A stretch of DNA of 64,000 bases from Oscillatoria sp. FACHB-1407 (lineage in GTDB: Bacteria; Cyanobacteriota; Cyanobacteriia; Elainellales; Elainellaceae): NCBI RefSeq assembly GCF_014697545.1, contig NZ_JACJSA010000011.1, positions 186,001-250,000 on the forward strand, written 5' to 3'. This document shows, piece after piece, positions 27,068 to 41,718 of this stretch (positions are counted from its first letter, which is position 1; every line of letters begins with the position of its first letter). A program made the position numbers and the translations under genes. A model generated the notes under the pieces. It made no database searches. It was given only the letters and a program-made list of their open reading frames with translations, and was not told the origin of the DNA.

Positions 27068-27159
27068 CAACACTCCTCACAACGGGCATTTGCCCTTATT
27101 GAAAACCCTTCTTAATAAGAGATGAAATGTAGTGTAGAGAAGCCAGTCAAGCCATGTCT

Positions 27160-27192
27160 ATCCCAAAACGGCATTCTATGATCCCAAAACGG
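27160..27192. promoter_or_regulatory. Paired direct repeats upstream of receptor B (candidate AraC/PchR boxes)
   Basis: ATCCCAAAACGG occurs perfectly twice, at 27160-27171 and 27181-27192, exactly 21 bp apart. The second copy overlaps the last codons of the AraC B gene. Two sites two helical turns apart fit binding by one double-HTH AraC protein or two subunits. Confidence 0.55.
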
Positions 27193-28177
27193 ACAATTGC
27201 CCTGCTAAACACTCCCTTGGGGTGATGCCAAACTGACGCTTGAATGCAGCGGCAAAATGCCCTAGATGAGCATAACCAACGCGATTGGCGACTTCTGCAA
27301 CCGTGCAGTTGCCTGCTCTCAATAGTTGTTCTGCCTGTTGCATCCGTTGTTGCGTCAGATAGCCAACGACCGTAGTCCCAAACAATTCTTGAAATCCCCG
27401 ACGCAGGGTGCGATCGCTCACCCCAACTTGTTGAGCAAGTTCTAACAACGACGGTGGATGTTCTAATTGCTGCGTCAGAATTTCCTTAGCGTGATGAATG
27501 CGGGCGATCGTGTCTGATTTGAACCCGGTGAACAAGGACGATGGCTGCTTCACAGAAATGCGATCAAGCTGTAACCCCAACAACTCAAACACTTTGGCTT
27601 GCAGATAGAGCCGTCGCACGACTCCTTTTAATGGAGTCTTGAGAATCTGTTGCACGACTCGTTGCATTGGCAGGGTGACATCGGGAAAGAAAGATGTTTT
27701 CCACTCATGGTCGCGAAGCAACAGTGATTTCAAAGCCAATGTATGAGCTGACCCATCCAACAAAAAGGGTTCCAGCAACTCTGGTGACAGATGAATACTA
27801 ACACCGAGCAACCGTTGCGATCGCTCGTATTGAGCCACATAGCCAGGAGAAATCCCACTGCCTGAAAGATAGCTGCAAGTACCTCCTATTGTGGGATACA
27901 CATCCTCATGATGAATCAGTCCATTCAGCAACAGCGAACACTGTACCAGATGGTCATGAACAGGTACTTTAAGGAATAAATCATCTTGATATTCAAAATT
28001 CAGAATATCCAACCAAACTCCCGGCACAAGCTCCATACTCTGAATATGCCCCTTGCCAAGACAGGTAGGCATCTCCTCCCACACTTCAAATTCATCAATC
28101 GGTGTATGAATCAGAGCGATCTCAGAATGGTGTTGCCATAGTTCAGAATACTCAGCCGATGAGAGAGCGAGAACCAT
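27176..28177 (-). CDS. AraC-family regulator, PchR-like (B)
   Basis: 333 residues. The N-terminal sensor domain resembles that of regulator A. The C-terminal HTH pair is LLELAQQVGVSDRTLRRGFQ and VAEVANRVGYAHLGHFAAAF followed by FGITPRE. It lies between permease B and receptor B, as regulator A lies between ATPase and receptor A. It probably activates receptor B through the 21-bp-spaced boxes and responds to iron-loaded siderophore. Confidence 0.9.
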   Translation of the reverse strand: MVLALSSAEYSELWQHHSEIALIHTPIDEFEVWEEMPTCLGKGHIQSMELVPGVWLDILNFEYQDDLFLKVPVHDHLVQCSLLLNGLIHHEDVYPTIGGTCSYLSGSGISPGYVAQYERSQRLLGVSIHLSPELLEPFLLDGSAHTLALKSLLLRDHEWKTSFFPDVTLPMQRVVQQILKTPLKGVVRRLYLQAKVFELLGLQLDRISVKQPSSLFTGFKSDTIARIHHAKEILTQQLEHPPSLLELAQQVGVSDRTLRRGFQELFGTTVVGYLTQQRMQQAEQLLRAGNCTVAEVANRVGYAHLGHFAAAFKRQFGITPRECLAGQLSVLGS

Positions 28178-28196
28178 AATTGTGTTCTAATCCGTT

Positions 28197-29225
28197 CTAT
28201 TGTTTCACCTTCGATCGCGCCAGGTAGATAAAAAATGGCGCACCAATGAGAGCCATCATGATTCCCACGGGTAATTCCTGGGGTTTGATGACCAACCGGG
28301 CTGCCAGGTCAGCGATCGCCAGCAGGATTGCACCCCAAACCGCCGCATAGGGCAGAATCCATCGGTAATCGACTCCCACCCAAACGCGGACGATGTGGGG
28401 AATGACGAGTCCAATAAAGCCAATGGGTCCCGCCAAGGCAACGGCACTCCCAGCTAATAAAACAACGACCAAAGCTGCGATCGCCTTCACCCATCCCGTT
28501 CGCAATCCCAATCCTTGAGCCACTTCTTCACCTAGGGTTAGGGCAGTGATTTGTTTGCCCATGCTAAATGCAGTAATTAAGCCAATCCCAACATAGGGGA
28601 GAATGGGCAACAACACGTCGAGGTCGCGTCCAGCAACAGATCCGGCTAACCAAAAGCGAATGTCATCTAAGGTGCGTTGATTGAGGATGAGAATTCCAGT
28701 CGTTAAAGAAGATAAGAGATACGTGAGAACGGCTCCTGCCAGGATGAGTTTTAAGGGAGTAATGCCGCTTCGTCCGATTGAGCCAAGGGTGTAGACCACA
28801 ATTGCTGCGATCGCACCCCCAGCAAATGCCACCCAGGTCAGCACTTGAATCGGCACCGTACCCAAGAAAAACGTTGTTGTGACTACGGCTAACGCGGCTC
28901 CAGCACTAATCCCCAAAATACCTGGATCTGCCAATGGATTGCGGGTTAATCCTTGCATCAATGATCCGGCAACGGCTAACGCGGCTCCAACAACCAGCGT
29001 CACCAAGACTCTGGGCAATCGTACTGTTGTAATGATGAGGTGATTGGTGGAACCGTCAAACGCGATGAGCGATCGCCAAACTGTCTCTAAATCAATATCC
29101 GCTGCACCAAGAGTGACGCTCAAGACCAGACACAGACAGAGTAGCAGAAAACTGATGGCTAAACCGATAAGTCGAGTTAGGTGCGATCGCTGAGACGATA
29201 AAGTGAGAGCCTTGATTGGAGTCAT
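28197..29225 (-). CDS. FecCD-family ferric-siderophore permease (B)
   Basis: 342 residues, about ten helices. Motifs: RLPRVLVTLVVGAALAVAG, QGLTRNPLADPGILG and LAGPIGFIGLVIPHIVR. No ATPase gene accompanies it; FecE-like 18996-19802 is the nearest candidate. It could pair with permease A or form a homodimer. It is 19 bp upstream of the AraC B gene. Confidence 0.92.
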   Translation of the reverse strand: MTPIKALTLSSQRSHLTRLIGLAISFLLLCLCLVLSVTLGAADIDLETVWRSLIAFDGSTNHLIITTVRLPRVLVTLVVGAALAVAGSLMQGLTRNPLADPGILGISAGAALAVVTTTFFLGTVPIQVLTWVAFAGGAIAAIVVYTLGSIGRSGITPLKLILAGAVLTYLLSSLTTGILILNQRTLDDIRFWLAGSVAGRDLDVLLPILPYVGIGLITAFSMGKQITALTLGEEVAQGLGLRTGWVKAIAALVVVLLAGSAVALAGPIGFIGLVIPHIVRVWVGVDYRWILPYAAVWGAILLAIADLAARLVIKPQELPVGIMMALIGAPFFIYLARSKVKQ

Positions 29226-29251
29226 ATCAATGAATCGCAGATGAACAGGGG

Positions 29252-29485
29252 TTAACCCAACTCAACCAGGGCTAAGCGGTAGATATCCCGTAGGATTGGC
29301 AGGGAAAACAGAAATCGATCGAGTCTGGAAAATCGTCGGTAATGTTTGAGTGGTACTTTTCTCGGCAGATCATGAAACGTGCAGATTTCTTTGATGTGGT
29401 AACGGGAGTCCCACGCTTCAATTTGATGAATGTTAGCGATCGCCCAATCAAATGTTGCAGAGGTATGTTTGACGGCTTGATAAGG
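29252..29485 (-). pseudogene. 3' remnant of a SAM-dependent methyltransferase gene
   Basis: A 77-codon frame with no start begins immediately after the ExbD stop and encodes ATFDWAIANIHQIEAWDSRY, then KEICTFHDLPRK and LFSLPILRDIYRLALVELG. It reads as the C-terminus of a class I (PPM1/LCMT-like) methyltransferase of the type often found near cyanobacterial siderophore genes. The rest of the gene is missing, apparently replaced by the exbD end. Family assignment is from memory. Confidence 0.5.
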
Positions 29486-29486
29486 T

Positions 29487-29885
29487 TTACGGACGTTGTG
29501 CCGAGATGCCGAGCTTGACCCCTTCTAGCGATCGCAACTGATCCATGACGGCAACTACACGACCATGTTCCACTTTTTCATCGGCGTTAATCACCACAAG
29601 GTGTTCTTGATCACCGATGATTGTTTTCACTTGCGCTGCTACATCCTCAACCTGGATAGGTTGGCGATCGAGAAATACATTTCCTTGCTCGTCGATGGTG
29701 ACAGTGAGCTTGCTCTGTTGTTGGGATTGAGCGGTTTGCGCCTGAGGCAGATTCACAGGTAAGCCTTCAGAACGGCTAAGAAATAGTGATGCCATGATAA
29801 AAAACGTCAAAATGGCAAAGATGACATCAATCATCGGCACAATATTAATTTGGGGTGAATCCTCTAAATCGTCTGGAATGTTCAT
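29487..29885 (-). CDS. exbD: ExbD/TolR-family biopolymer transport protein
   Basis: 132 residues, standard length. A single N-terminal membrane helix contains the proton-path aspartate in NIVPMIDVIFAILTFFIMAS, followed by a periplasmic domain (VTIDEQGNVFLDRQPIQVED). It starts two bases after the exbB stop. With ExbB it converts proton-motive force into TonB movement for the receptors of clusters A and B. Confidence 0.93.
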   Translation of the reverse strand: MNIPDDLEDSPQINIVPMIDVIFAILTFFIMASLFLSRSEGLPVNLPQAQTAQSQQQSKLTVTIDEQGNVFLDRQPIQVEDVAAQVKTIIGDQEHLVVINADEKVEHGRVVAVMDQLRSLEGVKLGISAQRP

Positions 29886-29887
29886 TG

Positions 29888-30544
29888 TTAATCCACAGCT
29901 GTTAATGTTTTGAATTCTGCAAAGCCCTCATGTTGACCCAGATGTAGCACTTCGAGTTGACTGCCATACTCCCGAATGGCTGCAATCTGCCGTCGATAAA
30001 ATCCGCGAAACACATTGGCAAACAGCAAAGTAAACACTGCCACGATCAGTCCTGCTGCTGTAGAGACTAACGCTTCGCTGATGCCGCCTGTTACCTGCAC
30101 GGCACTTTCACTGCCGACACTGCCTAAATTCAGCGAGGCAAACGACCGAATTAACCCAATTACCGTTCCCAACAATCCCAGTAGGGGAGACAGGGTTACA
30201 ATCGTGTCAAAGATCGTGTTAAACCGCCGCAGAGCAGGCAGTTCAGCCTGGGTTGCTCCTTCTAAAGTCAAGCGAAAAGCATGGGGTGGAAAGTGATTGA
30301 CCTCTAGAGCCTCTAGAAAAATGCGAGCGATCGGCAAGTCGGCATTTTGCTTGAGCTTGAGCATCGCTGTATCAAAATCATGCGAGTAGGCTCGCAAGAC
30401 ATCCCGCACGACTCGCTTTTGACGACGGTTGATCCGCACCCAAAAGACAACCCGTTCAATGATCAGGGCGATCGCTACGATCGAAAACGCCAGAAGGGGA
30501 AACATGACAATTCCCCCGGCTAAAAATAGTTCAATAATCAGCAT
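29888..30544 (-). CDS. exbB: ExbB/TolQ/MotA-family proton channel protein
   Basis: 218 residues from ATG 30544; a TTG at 30571 would add nine. The family core is TLSPLLGLLGTVIGLIRSF in the second helix and GGISEALVSTAAGLIVAVF in the third. It forms the pentameric channel around ExbD. It is divergent from tonB, with Fur-like sequences in the shared upstream region, so iron repression of both is likely. Confidence 0.93.
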   Translation of the reverse strand: MLIIELFLAGGIVMFPLLAFSIVAIALIIERVVFWVRINRRQKRVVRDVLRAYSHDFDTAMLKLKQNADLPIARIFLEALEVNHFPPHAFRLTLEGATQAELPALRRFNTIFDTIVTLSPLLGLLGTVIGLIRSFASLNLGSVGSESAVQVTGGISEALVSTAAGLIVAVFTLLFANVFRGFYRRQIAAIREYGSQLEVLHLGQHEGFAEFKTLTAVD

Positions 30545-30606
30545 TTCAGATATCCAGAGCAATAGAACCAATCTTCAAATCGGCAAGGCAGACTTGAATT
30601 CGTTAT

Positions 30607-30621
30607 TGATAACTCTTCTCA
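30607..30621. promoter_or_regulatory. Fur-box-like site between exbB and tonB
   Basis: TGATAACTCTTCTCA agrees with the 7-1-7 Fur consensus at 11 of 14 positions. A second TGATAACTCT lies about 95 bp downstream (near 30704). It is placed to act on both divergent genes. Confidence 0.35.
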
Positions 30622-30794
30622 AAAAGAGAGTATTTTCTTATGAGGATGATGTCAACCCCTCTCATTTCTAAGGTAAATTCTTTTGCCGCATCAAGGAATA
30701 ACCTGATAACTCTATTTCCTACTTGATCCCCAAGGCTTTATAGATCAAAGGTTCTAGTGATGTATGAAAAAACAACATTACAGAAAAGAATGTG

Positions 30795-30823
30795 TTGACA
30801 GCACCAGCGTTGAATTTTAGGAT
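30795..30823 (+). promoter_or_regulatory. Sigma-70-type promoter for tonB
   Basis: TTGACA at 30795-30800 and TAGGAT at 30818-30823 are separated by exactly 17 bp, with the start codon 44 bp further on. This is a good match to the housekeeping consensus. Confidence 0.5.
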
Positions 30824-30867
30824 GAACAGGTTATACAAAGATTCTCAATAACAAGTAGGTGGGGCGA

Positions 30868-32268
30868 ATGACGTTTTCAGATACAGTCGCTCAACAACGA
30901 GAAAAGCAAGCCACGGCTCTCAAGCGATTTGTCATGGCTAGTCTGGCAGGATCGGTCGTGTTACACAGTGGTGGGTTGTTTCTCAAAGTCAGTCATCTCT
31001 GGCAAGCAGATGAGCCAGCATCCGAAGAAATTACGATTGTGGTGACACCAGAAGAGGAAGGGGTGACACCCACAGATGCAACAGAAATGGCAGTAGCTCC
31101 TGAAACACCAGGTGAGCCAACTACCACAGCTGAGTTTTCATCTCCAACGATAGAAACCTTCAGCGAACCAACTGTGGTGCAGGAGTCTACAGTTGCCCCA
31201 GTTGAATCCACTCCAGAAGACCCTGTCGCTGAGGAACCACCTTTACAAGAGCCACTGACTGAAGAAGAGCCAACCCCGATTGCTGAGGACGTCACCCCCA
31301 CAGAAACTGCAACAGAATCAACGGAGGATAACTCGGACGAGCCTTCACAAACCGCTTTGCCAGAATCGGATACTCGTAACTTAAGCGATCTTCTAGCAGA
31401 ACTCCGACGAGCGCGACAACAGGGCAACTCATCTCCATCAGGAACATCTCAGCAGACCGGCATCTCCGGCAATCCTACTTCCGAAAATACGGGTGGTGTT
31501 GGGAATGGAACTGCCACTGCTGCGGCACCCACGTCCAGTATTACTCCCCCCGCAAGTACCCCGACCAGACAAGGTAGGCGATCGCGTGAAATTACGTGTA
31601 CTGGCTGTGAGTTTGATTATCCAGAAGCCGCCGATGGTGCAGAAGGAACGGCTCAAGTCATCGTCGAGACGGACGATCAAGGACGAGTGATCTCCGTTAT
31701 GTTGTCTCGGTCGAGTGGCAACGCCGCACTCGATCGTGCTGCATTAGAGCAAGCCCGACGACGAGTTCGCTTGAGCAATGCCAGAGCAGGCGAAAGTTAT
31801 CCGATTGATATTGACTTTGTACAGCCCAATTCAGAAGCGGCACAACGGGTTAGAGAACGGGGCGATCGCCGCAGTATTACTGTTGATGATCCTGAACCTA
31901 CGGCTGAAACCCCCACGTCTGAACCCCCCGCTTCGGCAGCAGTCACGACGCCATCCCCAACACCGGAGTCCACCATAACGGAGGAAGGATCACCCACTCC
32001 AGAGCCATCCTCAATTCCAGACGCCTCTCCAGCAGGATCAACGAGCCAGGAACCCGCAACCCCAGCCATTTCAGAGCCACGTCCTGTGAGCACACCTGTT
32101 ACTCCGCAACCCAGCACCAGTCGCGACGTACCGGAACCCCGTACATCAGAACCCGCGCCAGAATCGCGTACACCAGAACCTGCACCAGAACCGCGTGCAT
32201 CGGAGCCTGTTGTAGAACCGGATACCCCGCCAATGCCGCCTTCTAGTCCTCCGCCACCCGGTTCATAA
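30868..32268 (+). CDS. tonB: TonB-family energy transducer with long C-terminal tail
   Basis: 466 residues from ATG 30868 (a GTG three codons earlier is possible). One N-terminal helix (MASLAGSVVLHSGGLFLKVS) anchors it, then a Glu/Pro/Thr-rich spacer. The TonB C-terminal fold lies at about 241-325: CEFDYPEAADGAEGTAQVIV, VISVMLSRSSGNAALDRAAL. It is followed by about 140 more Pro/Ser/Thr/Glu-rich residues with SEPAPE-type repeats, unlike enteric TonB, where the fold ends the protein. It probably energises the AMIN receptors with ExbB and ExbD. Confidence 0.88.
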   Translation: MTFSDTVAQQREKQATALKRFVMASLAGSVVLHSGGLFLKVSHLWQADEPASEEITIVVTPEEEGVTPTDATEMAVAPETPGEPTTTAEFSSPTIETFSEPTVVQESTVAPVESTPEDPVAEEPPLQEPLTEEEPTPIAEDVTPTETATESTEDNSDEPSQTALPESDTRNLSDLLAELRRARQQGNSSPSGTSQQTGISGNPTSENTGGVGNGTATAAAPTSSITPPASTPTRQGRRSREITCTGCEFDYPEAADGAEGTAQVIVETDDQGRVISVMLSRSSGNAALDRAALEQARRRVRLSNARAGESYPIDIDFVQPNSEAAQRVRERGDRRSITVDDPEPTAETPTSEPPASAAVTTPSPTPESTITEEGSPTPEPSSIPDASPAGSTSQEPATPAISEPRPVSTPVTPQPSTSRDVPEPRTSEPAPESRTPEPAPEPRASEPVVEPDTPPMPPSSPPPPGS

Positions 32269-32615: not shown

Positions 32616-35600
32616 ATGGTTGCTGCTGTGGGGGATTTTTTAGATGCCTTTATTTCCTACGGACGGGTAGATAGCAAAGTTTTTGCTACGAAACTCCATC
32701 AGCAATTGACAGAAAAGGGTTATAAGATTTGGTTTGATCAGAACGACATTCCCTTAGGGGTAGACTTTCAAGATCAGATTAATGACGGCATCGAAAAATC
32801 CAACAATTTTATTTTTATCATTGCGCCTCATGCCGTTCACTCCCTTTACTGCACCAGAGAGATTGAACTCGCAGTCAAGCTCAACAAACGTATCATTCCC
32901 ATTTTGCATATTGAGCAGATTACGCAGGAGGTGTGGCAACAACGGTATCCTAACGCTTTAAGCTCTGAATGGGATGAGTTTACTGCAAAAGGGCTGCATT
33001 CTAGTCTGGCGGATTTGCATCCTGCGATCGCTAAGATCAACTGGATTTTCTGCCGAGATGGGGTGGATGACTTTGATACCGCCTTTACAGGGCTAATCAA
33101 TGTCATGCAGCGACATCAAGAATATGTGCAACACCATACCTATTGGTTAACCAAAGCTCTGGAATGGGAGCGGCAACACAGACAAACGCGCTATTTATTA
33201 ATGGGTGCAGAGCGACAGCAAGCTGAAACCTGGTTAAAAACTCGGTTTTATGGAGAACAACCTCCCTGCATCCCTACGGATCTTCATTGTGAGTACATTG
33301 TAGAGAGCCGCAAGAACGCCAATAATTTGATGACAGACGTATTTCTGTCTCATGCCGAAGAAGATGACGTAGTGACAACCCTGATCTCTAAAAGTCTGAT
33401 TCGACAGGGATTGACAGTGTGGTGGAGTAAGACAGATATTCAAACTGGAGTAGAATTTCAAGAGGCGATCGCTCATGGGATTGAAGAAGCCGATAACATT
33501 CTTTATCTCATTTCTCCTGCGTCACTCCAGTCAAAATATTGTCAGTGGGAAATTGACTACGCACTTTCCTTAAACAAACGAATTATTCCCTTACTGATTA
33601 AGCAAACCGAACTTGAGCAGATCCCTGAAAATTTGCGATCGCTCCAATACATTGATCTGACTGACAATGTTTTAGACACGGACTATCAGCAAGATGAGAG
33701 TAAATTATTTCGGATTCTGCGACATGATGCAGACTATTACGAACAGCACAAACTGCTGTTGGCAAAAGCCTTGAAATGGCAGCGGCAGCAGCGGAATCCC
33801 AGTCTGTTGCTACGAGGAAATAACCTGCGTTATGCAGAAGCCTGGTTAAAAGTTGCCCATCGCAACAGTCAGCATCCACCCACAGCATTACAGGCAGAAT
33901 TCATCACAGCAAGTTTGCAACAACCTGACGAAGCGGCATTGGACGTATTTATCTCCTATTCGCGGGCTGACTCAGATTTTGCTCGCAAGCTGAACGATGC
34001 TTTGCAAAACCAGGGAAAGAAAACATGGTTTGACCAGGAGAATATTGCCTCTGGAACTGATTTTCAGAAAGAGATTTTTGCAGGGATTGAAATCTCGAAT
34101 CACTTTTTGTTTGTGATTTCTCCCAGTTCAGTCAATTCTCCCTATTGTGTAGAAGAAGTTGAATATGCCAGAAAACTCAACAAGCGGATCGTCACAGTTT
34201 TATATCAACCTGTGAATCCGGCTGATTTGCCAACTGCCCTGGCATCGGTGCAATGGATTGATTTTTACAGGCGACAGGACGATTTTTATATCAACCTGGG
34301 AGAACTGGTGCGCACGCTGGATAGCGATCAGGAACACAAGCGATCGCACACTCGCTTACTCCTGAAAGCGATCGAGTGGGAACGAGAGGGCTACGACTCT
34401 AGCTATCTGCTGTATGGCAAAGATCTGCTGGCATCTGAGCGGTGGCTAAAGCAATCCAGTGGTAAAATTCCTGCCCCGTCTCCCTTGCAGTTGAGGTACA
34501 TTGAGACGAGCCGCAGATCACCCTTTCCACAGGCGAAGACCAGTACGGTGGTGATTTCAACGGTAGTGACTACTTTTCTACTGATCATGATGCGATCGCT
34601 GGGAGTCTTGCAATCCTGGGAGCTTCAGGCCTTTGATCATCTGGTCAAACTCCGTCCTAATGAACCACCAGATTCGCGGATTCTTATTGTCGAAGTGACG
34701 GAAGATGACATTATCAACCGGGTGCAGCGACGCGAAAAGGGCATGGGAACCCTGTCAGATGAAGGATTAACCCGCTTGCTCGAAAAACTAGAGCAATACG
34801 AACCTCGTGTGATTGGGCTGGACTTCTACCGTGACTTTACTGTTGATCCAGAAGTACCTGTGTTAGTTCAGCAGTTGCAACAGAGCGATCGCCTGGTCAG
34901 CATTTGCAAGTTACCAACGATTGGCGAGAATGGGTCAGTGGAACAGCGTGGAGTGGCACCCCCACCGGAAGTACCCCCTGAAACCGTTAGCTTTAATGAT
35001 GTTCTATTAGATGATGACGAGGTGGTGCGCCGCTTTTTGATTCGTGCGATCCCACCAGACGATGCTCTGTGTCAGGCAGGATGGGCGTTTGGCTTTCAGG
35101 TGGCACAACAATATTTGGCATTAGAGCCTGGAGGGGCGATCGCCACTCAAGATCCAGTAACCTCACCAGAGGGTGTGCTGCAAGTAGGAGACGTGGTGTT
35201 TCAGCGGTTGCAGAGCTATTCCAACGGCTATCAGGGCATTGACGCATCCGGCTTTCAAATGCTGGCGAATTATCGTGCTCCTGATGGCGATCCAGAAAAC
35301 ATCGCTGAGCGGGTGACGATTGGGCAAATTTTGAATGATGAAGTTCCTGAATCCGTGACGCGCACCTGGAAAGATCGCATCATTCTCATCGGCGTCACCT
35401 CGGAAAATAACGTCAGAGACATCCTGACAACTCCCCATCGCACCATTCCAGGGGTCATGGTGCAAGCACAAATTACTAGCCAGATCATTAGTGCAGTTTT
35501 AGACAATCGACTCTTGCTGTGGGTCATGCCAACCGGGTTAGAAGCTCTGTGGATTACTGTCTGGTGTGCGGTTGGGGGCGGTATTGTTTATGTCTTTCGA

Positions 35601-35792
35601 TCGCCTCTGCGATTGTGGTTGGCAGCATTTGGGGCGATCGCTTTACTCTATGGTGTGTGTTTCCTTAGCTTAATTCTTGCCGGACTCTGGCTACCGCTGA
35701 TCCCTGCCGTCTTGGCCGGAATTTTATCTGCGTCTGGTATATTCATCGTTACCGCTCGTTTGTCTAACCAAACACCCTCACACCGTCACTGA
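32616..35792 (+). CDS. Membrane receptor with three TIR domains and a CHASE2 sensor
   Basis: 1058 residues. Three TIR domains start near residues 9, 241 and 443: DAFISYGRVDSKVFATKL, DVFLSHAEEDD, DVFISYSRADSDFARKL. Each keeps the CxxE pair with the candidate NADase glutamate (C79/E82, C309/E312, C511/E514). After each comes a helical segment of similar pattern (KALEWERQ...LLMG...AETWLK). A helix at about 643-662 leads into CHASE2 (ILIVEVTEDDI, PRVIGLDFYRDF, KDRIILIGVTSE) up to about 960, then three helices. Topology predicts cytoplasmic TIRs and an external CHASE2. It is followed 10 bp later by the DUF928 gene. Confidence 0.88.
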   Translation: MVAAVGDFLDAFISYGRVDSKVFATKLHQQLTEKGYKIWFDQNDIPLGVDFQDQINDGIEKSNNFIFIIAPHAVHSLYCTREIELAVKLNKRIIPILHIEQITQEVWQQRYPNALSSEWDEFTAKGLHSSLADLHPAIAKINWIFCRDGVDDFDTAFTGLINVMQRHQEYVQHHTYWLTKALEWERQHRQTRYLLMGAERQQAETWLKTRFYGEQPPCIPTDLHCEYIVESRKNANNLMTDVFLSHAEEDDVVTTLISKSLIRQGLTVWWSKTDIQTGVEFQEAIAHGIEEADNILYLISPASLQSKYCQWEIDYALSLNKRIIPLLIKQTELEQIPENLRSLQYIDLTDNVLDTDYQQDESKLFRILRHDADYYEQHKLLLAKALKWQRQQRNPSLLLRGNNLRYAEAWLKVAHRNSQHPPTALQAEFITASLQQPDEAALDVFISYSRADSDFARKLNDALQNQGKKTWFDQENIASGTDFQKEIFAGIEISNHFLFVISPSSVNSPYCVEEVEYARKLNKRIVTVLYQPVNPADLPTALASVQWIDFYRRQDDFYINLGELVRTLDSDQEHKRSHTRLLLKAIEWEREGYDSSYLLYGKDLLASERWLKQSSGKIPAPSPLQLRYIETSRRSPFPQAKTSTVVISTVVTTFLLIMMRSLGVLQSWELQAFDHLVKLRPNEPPDSRILIVEVTEDDIINRVQRREKGMGTLSDEGLTRLLEKLEQYEPRVIGLDFYRDFTVDPEVPVLVQQLQQSDRLVSICKLPTIGENGSVEQRGVAPPPEVPPETVSFNDVLLDDDEVVRRFLIRAIPPDDALCQAGWAFGFQVAQQYLALEPGGAIATQDPVTSPEGVLQVGDVVFQRLQSYSNGYQGIDASGFQMLANYRAPDGDPENIAERVTIGQILNDEVPESVTRTWKDRIILIGVTSENNVRDILTTPHRTIPGVMVQAQITSQIISAVLDNRLLLWVMPTGLEALWITVWCAVGGGIVYVFRSPLRLWLAAFGAIALLYGVCFLSLILAGLWLPLIPAVLAGILSASGIFIVTARLSNQTPSHRH

Positions 35793-35802
35793 GGCTCATA
35801 TC

Positions 35803-36630
35803 ATGATTGGGTTTGACCAATTGCGTTATTTGACGCATCTCCTGAAAACAGCTAAGTATTCCTTGAAAGCAGGAGGGCTTGCCTGGTTTCTAGCCGTTTT
35901 ACTCATTGCTCCCTCCGTGTTGGCGCAGATAGAGCTACCGACCCTGATCGCATCGGGATGGGGCGTTCCCAGTGGCAATCGCAGAGGGGGTGGGCAGCGG
36001 GCGGGCAGTTGCCCTAATGTCAATATTCCGTTGACAGCCCTCGTGCCACTTCAAGATGATAACGGCACTCTGGTTGCTCAAGGCTCAACTGCCTCTGATC
36101 ATCCCACCCTGTGGTTTTATGTCCCTTACACTATTGGGGATGCGATGACCGCTTCACTCTGGCTTGAGGAACCTGAACCGGGCAGCGACCCCTCCGCCGA
36201 TCGCATCTACTACACTCAACGCGAGATTCTGTCCCTGCCTCCAACCCCCCCTGGAATTGTCAGCATTCAACTCCCCAGAAGTGAACCCGCTCTCACCGTC
36301 GGCAACACCTATCGTTGGCTGTTAGTGGTGACATGCGATGCGAGTGATGCTTCCAGCAACAAAGTAGCAGAAGTTGAGCTATCACGGATTGCATCTGATT
36401 CAACCGTGTCAGTTGGTAATACTGCTTCCTTGGAAAGCCGACTGAATGCCTACCGACAGGCAAGGCTCTGGAGCGAATTCATTACCGCTTTGGGAACAGC
36501 GTATTGTCAATCCTCCAGCAGACCACTAAATACTAACAGTGTGGTTGCCACGGAATGGAGTCAAACCTTGCAAGAGATTGGACTGGAGGCGATCGCCACA
36601 CAGTCCGATGTGACCTGCTCTGCTCGGTAG
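35803..36630 (+). CDS. DUF928-family exported protein
   Basis: 275 residues. A hydrophobic segment (LAWFLAVLLIAPSVLAQ) near residue 30-45 serves as signal peptide after a long N-region. The mature part shows the family pattern: GGGQRAGSCP, LTALVPLQDD, HPTLWFYVPY and TYRWLLVVTCD. DUF928 genes in cyanobacteria recur beside CHASE2 and FHA-CHAT genes; the function is unknown. It starts 10 bp after the TIR-CHASE2 stop, so the two are probably cotranscribed. Confidence 0.85.
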   Translation: MIGFDQLRYLTHLLKTAKYSLKAGGLAWFLAVLLIAPSVLAQIELPTLIASGWGVPSGNRRGGGQRAGSCPNVNIPLTALVPLQDDNGTLVAQGSTASDHPTLWFYVPYTIGDAMTASLWLEEPEPGSDPSADRIYYTQREILSLPPTPPGIVSIQLPRSEPALTVGNTYRWLLVVTCDASDASSNKVAEVELSRIASDSTVSVGNTASLESRLNAYRQARLWSEFITALGTAYCQSSSRPLNTNSVVATEWSQTLQEIGLEAIATQSDVTCSAR

Positions 36631-36653
36631 GGGTTGATGAGGGGAAGGGGTGG

Positions 36654-36708
36654 TGGTCAATGGTCAATGGTCAAGGGTCAATGGTCAATGGTCAATGGTC
36701 AAGGGTCA
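36654..36708. repeat. Heptanucleotide tandem repeat (STRR), short array
   Basis: Repeats of TGGTCAA with single-base variants (TGGTCAA, GGGTCAA). It is the reverse complement of the CCATTGA/CCATTAA array at 47934-48138. It lies in the 189-bp gap between the DUF928 and FHA-CHAT genes. Confidence 0.85.
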
Positions 36709-36819
36709 GAGGGTGGGGGTCAAAGGAAAGTCAGTTTGATGTTTCTCCCATACCAGAAGACCAGGGTGGGGAAGTTCAAGGTTAGGTAGTGTGTTTCTCG
36801 CTAAATACTGAAGGTGCTT

Positions 36820-39800
36820 ATGTCTGCGATCGCCTCTCGTCTATGGTTCCTCGGTCTTATCTCCTGCGGAGTGTTGCCACTGCTCGCTTCAGTTCCAGTG
36901 CAAGCGCAGTCGATCAGGGCCGAACCGAACAGTGCCGGAACGGTGGTTGACCAGAATGGCAATCGCTTTACCATCACCGGGGGAACGCAATCTGGCAGCA
37001 ATTTATTTCACAGCTTTGAACAGTTTGGCTTGAGTGCCGCAGAAATTGCTTCCTTTGTTTCCCGTCCTGACATTCAAAACATCTTGGGACGGGTTACCGG
37101 AGGGCAAGCCTCACTCATTGATGGTTTGCTGGAAGTCACCGGGGGCAACTCTAATCTGTATCTCCTAAATCCCGCAGGCATTCTATTTGGAGCTAATGCT
37201 CGGCTGGATTTACCTGCTTCCTTTTATGCCACCACTGCGACTGGCATCGGCTTTGGCAACAACACGTTTAACGCGGTTGGTTCTAACAACTACGCGGCAC
37301 TGATCGGTAATCCTGATAGTTTTGCTTTTACCCTGAGTCAAGCGGGAGCCATTGTCAATGCAGGCAACCTGGTTGTGAATCCTGGTGAAAGTGTCGGTCT
37401 TATTGGTGGAACGGTCGTCAACACAGGCACTATTTCCGCACCGGGAGGAACGATTACCTTAGCGGCGATTCCCGGAGCAAATCGAGTCCGAGTGAGTCAG
37501 ATAGGGAGTCTGCTCAGTTTAGAACTAGAGCCACCGGACGGCAGTTGGGATGGCATCAATCCGCTGCCCTTTACGCCCCTCTCTCTGCCAGAACTGCTAA
37601 CCGGAGGAGACATTGCCACGGCAACGGGTCTAGTCACCAATCCCGATGGCACAATTCGACTGAGTAGCACTTCCGTTCCCATTCAACCCGGAACAGCAAT
37701 CACCTCTGGAACCCTCAATACCGCTACAGACGCGACCATCAGTACAGACGCGATGAATCGCGTCTCTGCGGTTCCCCAGATTAATGTTCTGGGCGATCGC
37801 GTGGCTTTGTTGGCAGCTAATCTGAATGCCTCGGCAACTAACGGGGGCGGCACGGTTCGGATTGGTGGCGACTATCAGGGACAGGGAAGCGTGTTCAATG
37901 CCTCCCGCACCTTTGTCAGTCAAGATTCTACGATCACCGCAGATGCGTTAGAGAGTGGCAATGGCGGACGGGCGATCGTCTGGGCAGATGAAACCACTCG
38001 CTTTTTAGGCACGATTTCCGCCCAAGGGGGACAAACCGCTGGAGATGGCGGTTTTGTCGAAGTGTCAGGGGCACAAAACCTGCTGTTTGAGGGCTTGGTG
38101 AATGTAGGAGCTACTAACGGTCAATTGGGAACGCTATTACTCGATCCCACGAACATCACGATCTGGGATAGCACTGATAGTCCAGGTGTGACAGCAGCAC
38201 TTCCTGATATTTTTGCGGCTGACTTGCCAGGGGATGTTTTTATTAACAGCACAACATTAGCAGGTCAAACCGGAAATATTATTCTGGAAGCGACCAATGA
38301 CATCACGATTCGGAATGTAGCGGGTGGGGGGATTGCGCTAAACTTTGTGCCCGGTGGTTCCATTACGTTTACGGCTGATTCAGATGGATCTGGGGCTGGC
38401 GATTTCATCATGAATGCGGGCAGTTCTATCGATACAGCCGGACGTAATATTACAATTTCTGGAACCAATCTGACCCTGACTAACCTAGAGACAGGATCAA
38501 ATGGTGGAAATGCGCCAGGGGGAGTGATCACCCTCACCGCAACTGAGGACATTACTGTAGACGGTCTGTCCTCGGCTAACTTTCCAATTACAGGAGATGC
38601 GGGCGATGGAGGAGCCATCACGCTCAATGCAGGCGGCGACATTACTATATCGCCAGTGATAGGAGTAAGATCATTCTCCCAAACCAATGTTGCCAATGCA
38701 GGAGATGGAGGAGCGATTTCATTTACGGCGGGTGGCGATATTACAGTGGGGAACATTTTAGATTCCACTTCCTCAGGCGGCTTAAACTCAGGCGATGGAG
38801 GAGCCATCACCCTCACCTCAACAGCAGGCAGTATTACGACCGGAGGTGTAAGTGCCTCTTCATCTTCAAACTCTGGAACAGCGGGAACTGGGGGTGCTGT
38901 TACGTTTACTGCAACAGCAGGCAGTATTACGACCGGAAGTGTAAGCACCTTTTCATCTATAACTTCTGGAACGGAAGGAACTGGAGGTGCGATCGCCCTC
39001 ACTGCAAGAGATAGTGTCACCGCTACTTCCCTTTTGAGTGACAATACCGACATTACCCTGACCGGAAATGAGATTGACTTTGATGGTTTCTCTGGGCAAG
39101 ACAATAACATTACCCTTCAACCTTTTAGCCCTGATCGGGCGATCGCCATTAATGGTGTCACAGACAGTGGCACTGCAACGTTAGATCTCTTAAGCAGCGA
39201 AATTAGCTTGCTCTTCTCGATTAGGACGATCACGATTGGTAGAGAGGGAGGGAGTGGCACAGTCACCGTTAATACTGGCTCTTATATTGGTCCCTCCAAC
39301 CTACGAGGAGCTTCTACTTTAATCAGCGTTGGCGATGCAATCTGGCGCATTGATGGAACGAATAGTGGAACGCTTGATAATCTTTCTTTTACCTCCGTGC
39401 CAAATCTGCGTGGAGGTGACGGTAATGATACATTTACTCTCTTCAGTGGAGGGAGCCTCACGGGAACCATATCGGGAGGGGGTGGAACCAATACCTTAAG
39501 GGGGGGCAGTGCTTCTCCTGGTTCTGGTGATAATAACTGGGTGATTACAGGTTCAAATGCTGGCTCTCTCAATGGCACTGCCTTTACCGAGTTTCAGTCT
39601 TTAGAGGGTTCATCAGGAGCCGACTCTTTTGAATTTAGAAGCAACACACAATTTACAGGCAACATCAATGACAATGGTGGCGTATTGCGACTAACAGGCG
39701 ATACGGTAAATTTGACAGGCAATATCACTGCCTTTAATAGCCCTCTAACAATTGAAGCGAGCCAGGGCAACATTAATGTAAGAAATATCACGACTGGTAG

Positions 39801-41718
39801 CAGCACGGGTGGGTCAATCACGCTTACCGCTCGCAGCGGCGCAATTACAACAGGTAACTTAAGCACAGCCGCTAGTACCAGTGGTGGCGCGATTACTATT
39901 ATTGCCAGAGATGCCATCACCATAAGCACGATTGATACAAGCGGCAACAGTGGCAATGGGGGAAATGTTACCCTTGACCCCAGTGGCGATATTCAAGTCA
40001 CTTCCATCAATGCGGATGGTGGCACCAGCGGCAGAGGGGGAACGGTCGATATCACGACAGGGAGGTTTTTCCGGGCAACAGGTTCGTTTACGAATCGCAA
40101 TGGTTTACTATCAAGCATTTCTGCGGCTGGGGGAACTGGTAATGGAACGGTGATCATTCGCCATGGGGGCAATGGGGCAACACCGTTTGTCATTGGTGCA
40201 AACTTTAGAGGCAGCGATCTGACTGGAATTAATGGCACAGCTGCTGCGATTACCAATGGAACTGATACTTTTAGCGTTGGAGAGTCGTTTAACAGCAGCA
40301 TCACACGCGGCAATCTGCAACTGATCACAGGAGGTGACGGCTCAGGGGGAGATGACCCAGATGAGTGCGACTTCATCGATTGCGGGGATGATGATGATTA
40401 CGATGACGAGGAGTATGACTACGAAGAGGAAGAGGAATATTACATTGAGGAACCGCTAGCCCGCGAAAGCCTGCTTGCCATTCAACAGCAAACGGGCATT
40501 AGACCGGCTCTGATTTATGTCAGTTTTGTGTCTACTGATGTGCCGATCGCCACTACCTTTGAGCGACAAGAAGCGATCGCCACACAGCAGTTTGCCAGTC
40601 ACCTCGATCGCCCCAACCCAACTCAACCGCCAACCTTGGCGATCGCCCCTCAAGATACCGATGAACTGACGCTTCTTTTAGTCACCCCCGATGGAGAAAA
40701 CATCTATCGTCGAATCCCCGGTGTGACTCGTGCCGAAGTGATTGAAGCCTCTCAACAACTACGAGCCGCCGTGACCAATCCTCGACTAGTCCGGACTCGC
40801 ACCTACTTGCCTGCGGCAAAACAACTCTATGACTGGATGATTGCCCCTCTGCAAGCTGAACTGCAAGCCGAAGAAATTAAAAATATTGGTTTCATTCTGG
40901 ATTCTGGATTGCGAACCATTCCTCTGGCAGCATTGCACGATGGGCAGGGTTTCCTGATTGAAAACTACAGCATTGGATTAATGCCTAGCTTGAATCTGGT
41001 GGATACGCGCTATGAAGACATCCGCGACAGTGCGGTGTTAGCCGCTGGAACCTCAGACTTTCGGGGGTTTGGGCTTGATCCACTGCCAGCGGTTCCAGCC
41101 GAAATAGAGGCGATTTCTAACCTGTGGGAAGGGCAGACCAGCACCCTAGAAGGCAATCAGTTTACGATCGCTCAGTTACAAGCGGCACGGTTAGAGCGTC
41201 CCTTTGGCATTGTGCATTTAGCAACTCACGGTGAATTTGTTCCCGGCAATCTGGCAAATTCTTACATTCAGTTCAGCGATACTCGCCTACGCCTTGACCA
41301 GATTCGGACGTTAGGCTTTAACGATCCTCCCGTTGAACTCATGGTCTTAAGTGCCTGTCGTATGGCATTGGGGAGTGAGACGGCAGAACTGGGCTTTGCT
41401 GGATTAGCGGTTCAGGCAGGTGTTAAAACGGCTCTTGCAAGCCTCTGGAGTATCAGTGACGAGGGCACCTTAGGGTTGATGACCGAGTTTTATGAAGAGT
41501 TGCGTACTCAACCGATCAAAGCAGAAGCACTCCGTCAAGCCCAACTGGCAATGGCAGAAGGTCGAGTACGGGTTGAAGGCGATCGCCTGGTCTTGAGTAG
41601 CACGGATGGTGAAGAGATCGCTTTGGATCTACCCGAAACCCTGGATGGTCGTGGCGATCGTGATTTTATCCACCCCTATTACTGGGCAGGTTTCACACTA
41701 GTGGGTAGCCCCTGGTAA
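36820..41718 (+). CDS. FHA beta-helix surface protein with C-terminal CHAT protease domain
   Basis: 1632 residues from ATG 36820 with GAAGG five bases upstream. Signal peptide to about 31 (VPVQAQS); two-partner-secretion FHA N-domain about 32-290 (GSNLFHSFEQFGL, NPAGILFGANARLDL); then a long Gly/Thr/Ile-rich beta-helix with GGAITLT and GGDITV repeats. An Asp/Glu/Tyr-rich stretch near 1178-1212 links to a CHAT domain (about 1280-1632) whose dyad is His1470 (HLATHGEF) and Cys1513 (LSACRMALG). It should be a secreted caspase-like protease. No TpsB/FhaC transporter gene is in the window. Confidence 0.9.
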   Translation: MSAIASRLWFLGLISCGVLPLLASVPVQAQSIRAEPNSAGTVVDQNGNRFTITGGTQSGSNLFHSFEQFGLSAAEIASFVSRPDIQNILGRVTGGQASLIDGLLEVTGGNSNLYLLNPAGILFGANARLDLPASFYATTATGIGFGNNTFNAVGSNNYAALIGNPDSFAFTLSQAGAIVNAGNLVVNPGESVGLIGGTVVNTGTISAPGGTITLAAIPGANRVRVSQIGSLLSLELEPPDGSWDGINPLPFTPLSLPELLTGGDIATATGLVTNPDGTIRLSSTSVPIQPGTAITSGTLNTATDATISTDAMNRVSAVPQINVLGDRVALLAANLNASATNGGGTVRIGGDYQGQGSVFNASRTFVSQDSTITADALESGNGGRAIVWADETTRFLGTISAQGGQTAGDGGFVEVSGAQNLLFEGLVNVGATNGQLGTLLLDPTNITIWDSTDSPGVTAALPDIFAADLPGDVFINSTTLAGQTGNIILEATNDITIRNVAGGGIALNFVPGGSITFTADSDGSGAGDFIMNAGSSIDTAGRNITISGTNLTLTNLETGSNGGNAPGGVITLTATEDITVDGLSSANFPITGDAGDGGAITLNAGGDITISPVIGVRSFSQTNVANAGDGGAISFTAGGDITVGNILDSTSSGGLNSGDGGAITLTSTAGSITTGGVSASSSSNSGTAGTGGAVTFTATAGSITTGSVSTFSSITSGTEGTGGAIALTARDSVTATSLLSDNTDITLTGNEIDFDGFSGQDNNITLQPFSPDRAIAINGVTDSGTATLDLLSSEISLLFSIRTITIGREGGSGTVTVNTGSYIGPSNLRGASTLISVGDAIWRIDGTNSGTLDNLSFTSVPNLRGGDGNDTFTLFSGGSLTGTISGGGGTNTLRGGSASPGSGDNNWVITGSNAGSLNGTAFTEFQSLEGSSGADSFEFRSNTQFTGNINDNGGVLRLTGDTVNLTGNITAFNSPLTIEASQGNINVRNITTGSSTGGSITLTARSGAITTGNLSTAASTSGGAITIIARDAITISTIDTSGNSGNGGNVTLDPSGDIQVTSINADGGTSGRGGTVDITTGRFFRATGSFTNRNGLLSSISAAGGTGNGTVIIRHGGNGATPFVIGANFRGSDLTGINGTAAAITNGTDTFSVGESFNSSITRGNLQLITGGDGSGGDDPDECDFIDCGDDDDYDDEEYDYEEEEEYYIEEPLARESLLAIQQQTGIRPALIYVSFVSTDVPIATTFERQEAIATQQFASHLDRPNPTQPPTLAIAPQDTDELTLLLVTPDGENIYRRIPGVTRAEVIEASQQLRAAVTNPRLVRTRTYLPAAKQLYDWMIAPLQAELQAEEIKNIGFILDSGLRTIPLAALHDGQGFLIENYSIGLMPSLNLVDTRYEDIRDSAVLAAGTSDFRGFGLDPLPAVPAEIEAISNLWEGQTSTLEGNQFTIAQLQAARLERPFGIVHLATHGEFVPGNLANSYIQFSDTRLRLDQIRTLGFNDPPVELMVLSACRMALGSETAELGFAGLAVQAGVKTALASLWSISDEGTLGLMTEFYEELRTQPIKAEALRQAQLAMAEGRVRVEGDRLVLSSTDGEEIALDLPETLDGRGDRDFIHPYYWAGFTLVGSPW

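Follow-up and report, generated by a model that had tools for sequence, protein, structure and literature searches.

Receptor gene and predicted architecture

We analysed a 64,000-nucleotide stretch of the genome of the cyanobacterium Oscillatoria sp. FACHB-1407 (assembly GCF_014697545.1, contig NZ_JACJSA010000011.1, positions 186,001 to 250,000), referred to hereafter as the window and numbered as contig position minus 186000. One of its genes encodes a predicted membrane receptor with three tandem TIR domains in its N-terminal part and a CHASE2 sensor domain towards its C-terminus. The open reading frame (ORF) is intact, opening with ATG and running for 1058 residues without internal stops, and is divided as follows.

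32616-35792, forward strand: whole receptor, 1058 amino acids, three TIR domains, one transmembrane helix, CHASE2, three transmembrane helices (ORF, Pfam, AlphaFold2 model)
32649-32921, forward strand: TIR1, membrane-distal, putative catalytic Glu E82 at 32859-32861 (profile search of the genome, alignment)
33072-33320, forward strand: helical linker 1, residues 153-235 (AlphaFold2 model, linker comparison)
33339-33689, forward strand: TIR2, Glu E312 at 33549-33551 (sequence and structure match)
33675-33920, forward strand: helical linker 2, residues 354-435 (AlphaFold2 model, linker comparison)
33945-34283, forward strand: TIR3, membrane-proximal, Glu E514 at 34155-34157 (sequence and structure match)
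34275-34517, forward strand: helical linker 3, residues 554-634 (AlphaFold2 model, linker comparison)
34539-34598, forward strand: transmembrane helix 1, residues 642-661 (model and hydropathy)
34569-35579, forward strand: CHASE2 domain, residues 652-988 in Pfam, predicted to be extracytoplasmic (Pfam, genome search)
35532-35768, forward strand: transmembrane helices 2-4, residues 973-1051 (model and hydropathy)

Both domain assignments lie far above chance: Pfam TIR_2 matches three stretches of the protein (E 6.2e-81 for the whole protein, 269 bits against a cut-off of 28) and CHASE2 matches residues 652-988 (E 6.1e-54, 183.7 bits), while the receptor itself has no Pfam match to a CHAT or caspase domain. 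The AlphaFold2 model (mean pLDDT 86.3, pTM 0.59) shows an alpha/beta stretch for each TIR with helices after it, the three helical linkers being mutually 35-38% identical, and further helices at residues 642-661, 973-993, 997-1022 and 1028-1051. A plain hydropathy scan peaks at 645-663, 975-993 and 1008-1026, where the last peak is an unbroken run of scan starts from about 998 to 1031 with room for two helices. Pfam and the model thus place CHASE2 between one helix and three helices, as in a CHASE2 receptor, and an earlier note made from this sequence alone, which had described three TIR domains followed by one helix, a CHASE2 domain and three further helices, is borne out. From the helix count and the cytosolic nature of TIR domains we infer that CHASE2 lies outside the cytoplasm. 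A search by sequence for a solved CHASE2 structure returned a single chance-level match (E 0.7), the structural matches listed for the receptor being taken up by its TIR domains, and a promoter and terminator scan gave nothing notable (6 promoter-like sites against 4.7 expected, 3 terminator-like sites against 4.0).

TIR domains and their putative active sites

The putative catalytic glutamate is present in all three TIR domains of the window protein, within the motifs YCTRE (E82), YCQWE (E312) and YCVEE (E514), in keeping with the intact CxxE motifs that had been read there. In sequence alignment E82 coincides with the Glu in the WVHKE of SARM1, and E312 and E514 with the equivalent Glu in TIRs of bacteria and animals, so that by alignment the three residues appear to occupy the NADase site as the earlier note supposed; we take the Glu at this position to be the catalytic one of TIR NADases. 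In the structural comparison with SARM1 that the note had proposed, two of the domains match in overall fold, TIR2 matching 9mw2_A (Z 18.4, rmsd 1.7 over 125 residues) and TIR3 matching 7anw_A (Z 17.7, rmsd 2.0 over 128), with best Z values against known TIRs of up to 20.5 for TIR2 and 18.4 for TIR3. A SARM1 E642A structure is among the matches listed. TIR1 is not among the 50 structural matches listed, and its assignment is therefore by sequence and Pfam.

The three domains are conserved to very different degrees. We aligned 46 proteins, namely 29 of CHASE2 type (including a divergent Okeania protein, L128, introduced below) and 17 of 52 TIR relatives without a CHASE2 match, with one homologue, L054, left out. 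In TIR1, the residues Ser14-Tyr15-Gly16-Arg17, Trp39, Asp41, Asp44, Cys79 and Glu82 are identical in 46/46 rows. The second Arg position of box 1 in TIR2, by comparison, holds an Arg in 0/46 rows, the window protein having E248 there. Site counts over 30 TIR-CHASE2 proteins (the window protein, L054 and 28 loci, L128 not among them) tell the same story for the glutamate. It is kept in the first TIR of all 30; in the 22 proteins with three TIRs it is kept in TIR2 of 22 and in the membrane-proximal TIR of 15 (5 Gln and 2 Asp in the rest), and in the seven proteins with five TIRs the last domain retains it once and has Gln in the other six. With L128 counted in and L101, a fragment, counted out, the last-TIR Glu is found in 17/30 TIR-CHASE2 proteins compared to 49/52 relatives without a CHASE2 match; it is thus gone from the membrane-proximal TIR in 13 of 30, the window protein's own being kept. 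A Fisher test on 16/29 versus 47/50 gives 7e-5 for rows that are related and in some cases near-identical, the residue needs 7 changes on the tree, and an ancestry-aware test by independent pairs had only 2 usable pairs.

Since the TIR1 site alone is fully conserved, we read the array as probably having one conserved active site with helper TIRs, and the notion that the three TIRs are equal active sites, as they had been treated before, does not fit these counts. An alternative, which we regard as unlikely, is that the TIRs form a scaffold, as in animal Toll receptors and MyD88, and that the activated receptor recruits other TIR proteins in its own cell, which then act. Toll/MyD88-type TIRs are not known to be enzymes. 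They are among the best structural matches (4w8g, Z 20.5; 7beq, Z 18.1), the loss of Glu from the membrane-proximal TIR and the lack of the box-1 Arg in TIR2 throughout the 46 rows would suit such a role, and the 8.13-Mb genome that contains the window has 48 TIR_2 matches, any of which might be a partner. However, SARM1 and bacterial TIR-APAZ structures fit about equally well, and the invariance of the TIR1 site goes beyond what a pure scaffold would need.

Distribution of TIR-CHASE2 proteins

The query for a search of GTDB representative genomes was the window protein aligned with four homologues; 172 candidates were confirmed and the best 80 were kept, representing 77 distinct loci, and the counts that follow describe this kept set and are not totals. 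All 77 carry cyanobacterial names. TIR and CHASE2 occur in one ORF in 28 of them according to local HMMs (one, L101, being cut off by a contig end), and Okeania L128, whose divergent CHASE2 was missed by the local HMM and recognised by Pfam, brings the number to 29/77. Three of the loci (L085, L090 and L092) were taken as duplicates of other homologues and counted once. Pfam scans of fourteen TIR ORFs scored as lacking CHASE2 showed WD40 repeats in 13; the other one is L128.

A profile of the TIR-linker-helix-CHASE2 junction was run on 386 sampled cyanobacterial genomes, up to 8 candidates being scored per genome, and at least 5 of these genomes, the window's included, match it over its whole length. 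This number is a floor, because divergent fusions such as L128 escape the junction profile. Among the matches listed, no others span the whole profile; one (G060:C18) reaches position 159 of the 207 in the profile, and the matching contig, L091, is of the WD40 type. The TIR-CHASE2 fusion is therefore rare per genome yet recurrent, being found in Nostoc, Anabaena, Calothrix, Symploca, Leptolyngbya and others. A hydrophobic segment follows the TIR block in 51/52 relatives without a CHASE2 match by the local HMMs, compared to 0/82 control stretches after TIR1, and membrane-anchored triple-TIR proteins are thus a larger class than TIR-CHASE2. The arrangement, called unusual in the earlier note, is not isolated.

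Plasmids also carry such genes. The 58-kb plasmid pB of Kovacikia minuta (L151) has the fusion in a mobile form, its TIR-CHASE2 and DUF928 genes standing head to head in the vicinity of transposase genes and an integron integrase gene. Bernardetia, which we take not to be a cyanobacterium, has on plasmid NZ_CP147018.1 (468800-470683) a triple-TIR block that shares 45% identity with that of the window protein.

One CHASE2 lineage with different cytosolic domains

The window genome has 15 CHASE2 proteins, whose outputs are CHAT (5), cyclase (2), histidine kinase (2), Ser/Thr kinase (2), GGDEF (1) and TIR (1), with none recognised in the remaining 2. Among the best-matching other CHASE2 loci (43 loci, 36 distinct genes), local HMMs place a CHAT-type domain at the N-terminus in 34/36 genes, all 34 of which have the His and Cys of the aligned CHAT columns; 9/9 CHAT-type CHASE2 proteins that were scanned reach the Pfam CHAT cut-off. 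The two exceptions are a kinase-CHASE2 protein (L047) and a short ORF (L179).

In a quick tree of CHASE2 domains (SH-aLRT support only, no outgroup, L047 not included), 29/30 TIR-type and 20/22 CHAT-type rows fall in one group with an SH-aLRT of 99, and the kinase, cyclase, GGDEF, histidine-kinase and output-less rows of the window genome fall outside it. The CHAT proteins L069 and L070 lie outside the main group and join Okeania L128, a join made unsure by long branches and thin rows. L128 (9995-13198) is informative in both of its halves. Its CHASE2 is 39% identical over 439 columns to that of a CHAT-CHASE2 protein of the window genome (E 1e-79), compared to E 0.002 and hardly any alignment with the window CHASE2, and the sister of its TIR block (SH-aLRT 100) belongs to L133, a TIR-WD40 protein of a different Okeania. 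TIRs thus joined CHASE2 on at least two occasions, always on a lineage that bears CHAT as well. The cytosolic domain, TIR or CHAT, differs on one CHASE2 lineage, and the receptor was apparently built by exchanging parts with CHAT-bearing receptors.

Genes beside the receptor

Two genes follow the receptor gene in the window.

35803-36630, forward strand: DUF928 protein with an N-terminal export signal by eye, a probable extracytoplasmic partner (Pfam E 1.5e-35, adjacency)
36814-41718, forward strand: TPS-CHAT protein, a probable exported member of the cassette (Pfam TPS E 2.4e-39, CHAT E 2.9e-68)

The DUF928 gene begins 11 bases past the receptor gene. In the TPS-CHAT protein an N-terminal two-partner-secretion (TPS) domain is joined to a C-terminal caspase-like CHAT domain, implying that this CHAT protein would be found at the cell surface. 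Short tandem repeats of the ATGGTCA type occupy 36650-36715, between the two genes.

We compared neighbourhoods at loci with 5 kb on both sides, which left 18 TIR-CHASE2 loci (the window's among them) and 23 TIR relatives without a CHASE2 match; HMM seeds were drawn in part from the 18, and the seed DUF928 proteins exceed the Pfam DUF928 cut-off. DUF928 is found within 5 kb at 15/18 of the former compared to 2/23 of the latter, and CHAT, TPS or TpsB at 12/18 compared to 1/23. The gene neighbourhood goes with the sensor, DUF928 tracking CHASE2. Within the window genome, DUF928 lies within 5 kb of 8/15 CHASE2 genes of various outputs (local HMM; many flanks are shorter than 5 kb), two CHASE2 genes stand beside a FecR gene and one beside a DUF928 match under the cut-off. 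In three Leptolyngbya-type loci (L115, L142 and L149) a five-TIR CHASE2 receptor, a TPS-TPS-CHAT gene and a further triple-TIR gene, of the WD40 type in L115, stand in a row, looking as if sensor, surface protein and second receptor formed one unit.

A beta sandwich and C-terminal helices make up the structure model of DUF928 (pLDDT 77.4 overall, 76-94 per ten-residue block over residues 91-200). In VIA the model is matched best by the C-terminal domain of MtxA (4z29_B, Z 9.1, rmsd 3.9 over 150/169 residues), followed by a next-best match at Z 7.0. MtxA is not among the top 50 Foldseek matches listed for the model, and the link is by predicted fold alone, because a DUF928 sequence profile does not find MtxA at E up to 10. 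Papers are cited here by PMC number, and what is attributed to each holds for the parts of the text drawn on. MtxA, which Magnetospirillum exports, has Ig-like and TPR-like parts, and its gene is followed by that of a CHASE2-adenylate cyclase (PMC4439547). DUF928 and MtxA genes thus both adjoin CHASE2 receptor genes. An exported LysM/FecR protein is likewise encoded beside the Burkholderia biofilm CHASE2 kinase (PMC5192318), and these two neighbours, MtxA and FecR/LysM, together suggest that many CHASE2 receptors may act jointly with an exported protein. CHASE2 and DUF928 have also been described within one Nostoc cluster (PMC5587647).

Proposed function and its alternatives

We favour, by a modest degree, the view that the window protein is a CHASE2-class receptor of the envelope whose effector is interchangeable and consists here of a triple TIR array that probably cleaves NAD+, serving a conflict, stress or death response. 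In such a receptor CHASE2, outside the cytoplasm and together with the exported DUF928 protein and often with surface CHAT/TPS proteins, would detect a change in the envelope or a molecule from outside. The change would travel through the four helices and bring the TIR arrays of at least two receptors together, whereupon TIR1, with the sole fully conserved site, would cleave NAD+, resulting in its depletion or in a signal nucleotide, while TIR2 and TIR3 would mainly build the assembly. Such a receptor would likely serve in conflict, under stress or in cell death, as was proposed for a published metacaspase-CHASE2 protein (PMC3501461, PMC2853523). The suggestion in the earlier note that CHASE2 may control TIR activity across the membrane agrees with these findings.

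Several observations weigh against this view. The contrast in Glu loss is not independent of ancestry, and a scaffold role for part or the whole of the TIR array is possible because TIR2 is without the box-1 Arg and TIR3 is often without its Glu. DUF928 is missing within 5 kb in 3/18 loci (L128, L115 and L125), and deletion of mtxA had no visible phenotype under standard conditions (PMC4439547). A known TIR-signal effector was recognised in none of the nine window ORFs scanned. There is no link to phage defence either: the PADLOC matches, led by the undescribed PDC-S66, always have their best stretch in the TIR part, where the NCBIfam matches, none of them over its cut-off, lie as well. Lastly, Dgc2 of Leptolyngbya, a CHASE2-GGDEF receptor studied with cyanobacterial genetics, controls motility and biofilm, not death, in the account given (PMC10581220).

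Dgc2 leads to a second alternative, that the receptor is an ordinary cell-surface regulator of adhesion, secretion or gliding and that its TIR product is a routine second messenger instead of a death or immune signal. The cassette with TPS, TpsB and CHAT proteins would suit this, as would the coupling of CHASE2 to kinase, cyclase and GGDEF outputs elsewhere in the same genome. We nevertheless find it improbable, since in the quick tree the CHASE2 domains of TIR and CHAT type cluster together, away from those that the genome couples to kinase, cyclase and GGDEF outputs, and since conflict systems use TIR and caspase-like domains as effectors (PMC8195603, where CHASE2 is mentioned at the variable end of caspase proteins). 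Far less credible is a role in sensing a siderophore or the iron state for the iron-uptake cluster at 24437-32268 (TonB-dependent siderophore receptor, AraC regulator, iron permease, ExbD, ExbB and TonB-like protein), which lies just upstream, but is separated from the receptor by 347 bases after the TonB-like ORF, and of which no counterparts were recognised in the ORF lists beside four homologues (L054-L057), part of those ORFs having been scanned with Pfam without a systematic count.

Under the favoured reading, an envelope receptor with a probable NADase array, the architecture suggests that signals from outside are able to activate enzymes of cell death or alarm in these cyanobacteria. 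The bacterial TIRs studied so far mostly answer to intracellular triggers. A conserved, probably extracytoplasmic sensor joined to a TIR array makes an NAD+-based response to outside cues directly testable in bacteria, and, with CHAT and TIR naturally exchanged within a single CHASE2 lineage, two effectors can readily be compared under one sensor. The DUF928 partner gives a handle on what CHASE2 senses, which is called unknown in PMC10581220 and PMC5192318. A wider proposal, which we put forward tentatively and consider somewhat doubtful, is that death or alarm receptors of multicellular cyanobacteria form a class sharing a single sensor chassis, in which CHASE2 and a dedicated exported DUF928 protein of MtxA-like fold read an outside trigger, and a CHAT protease, a metacaspase or a TIR NADase array is plugged in inside. 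On that view the window protein would be a bacterial enzyme of the TIR kind that is activated from beyond the cell, and effector swapping would have given rise to a functional counterpart of Toll and death receptors.

Comparison with known systems

A TIR-CHASE2 protein was not found described in the openly licensed PMC literature, including the parts drawn on of PMC7159879, PMC10907252, PMC7075850 and PMC13142454, and may be described elsewhere; the family search suggested earlier thus turned up an arrangement recurrent in cyanobacteria with no published account in that literature.

Animal Toll-like receptors share with the window protein an external sensor, a membrane passage and a cytosolic TIR, and their TIR fold matches. 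They differ in having the opposite order, a single TIR, leucine-rich repeats and one helix (PMC7075850). By Pfam and the structure model the window protein has neither a leucine-rich ectodomain, nor a single helix, nor a C-terminal TIR, and the likeness would be one of plan only and not of membership. The comparison with plant or animal TIR receptors drawn in the earlier note accordingly gives way to a closer parallel, bacterial CHASE2 receptors with a CHAT domain or, in PMC3501461, a metacaspase domain.

With ThsB of Thoeris and other anti-phage TIRs the receptor shares a TIR_2/ThsB-type domain. Known bacterial anti-phage TIRs are mostly soluble. ThsA, unlike in Thoeris, was not recognised beside the receptor gene, and no STALD (ThsA) match occurs in the window genome, nor in the control genomes. 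The Thoeris model NF058526 scores 107.7 bits against a cut-off of 220 with no other Thoeris model among the matches listed, and the receptor reaches no NCBIfam cut-off.

CHASE2 kinase and GGDEF receptors (Burkholderia, PMC5192318; Dgc2, PMC10581220) likewise combine a CHASE2 sensor with transmembrane helices, but carry their output after the last helix and signal through phosphate or cyclic nucleotides. Cyanobacterial proteins with three TIRs, a helix and WD40 repeats are up to 65% identical to the window protein across the TIR block and linkers and have one hydrophobic segment after it, with WD40 in place of CHASE2 (13/13 scanned) and with the last-TIR Glu nearly always kept.

The cyanobacterial CHAT-CHASE2 proteins come nearer. 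They have the same domain order, belong to the same CHASE2 group and in several cases stand beside DUF928, differing in the caspase-like CHAT domain at the place of the TIRs; the window receptor has in common with them an N-terminal effector, the chassis and the CHASE2 lineage. No paper on CHASE2 with a CHAT domain was found in the openly licensed PMC literature. In a review, CHASE2 is drawn as the place where death-inducing factors bind in cyanobacteria (PMC7475262). In print, a Trichodesmium erythraeum protein with a metacaspase domain, one helix, CHASE2 and three helices is known, and its authors suggested a membrane protein with the receptor domain exposed outside and the effector in the cytoplasm (PMC3501461, PMC2853523). 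It is a single sequence, with a caspase-like protease where the window protein has three TIRs and with no gene cassette described for it in those texts. The two nevertheless share an N-terminal, cytosolic, death-type effector followed by one helix, CHASE2 and three helices. This metacaspase-CHASE2 receptor is, among the sources drawn on, the closest published design, and the TIR version is a variation on a published chassis.

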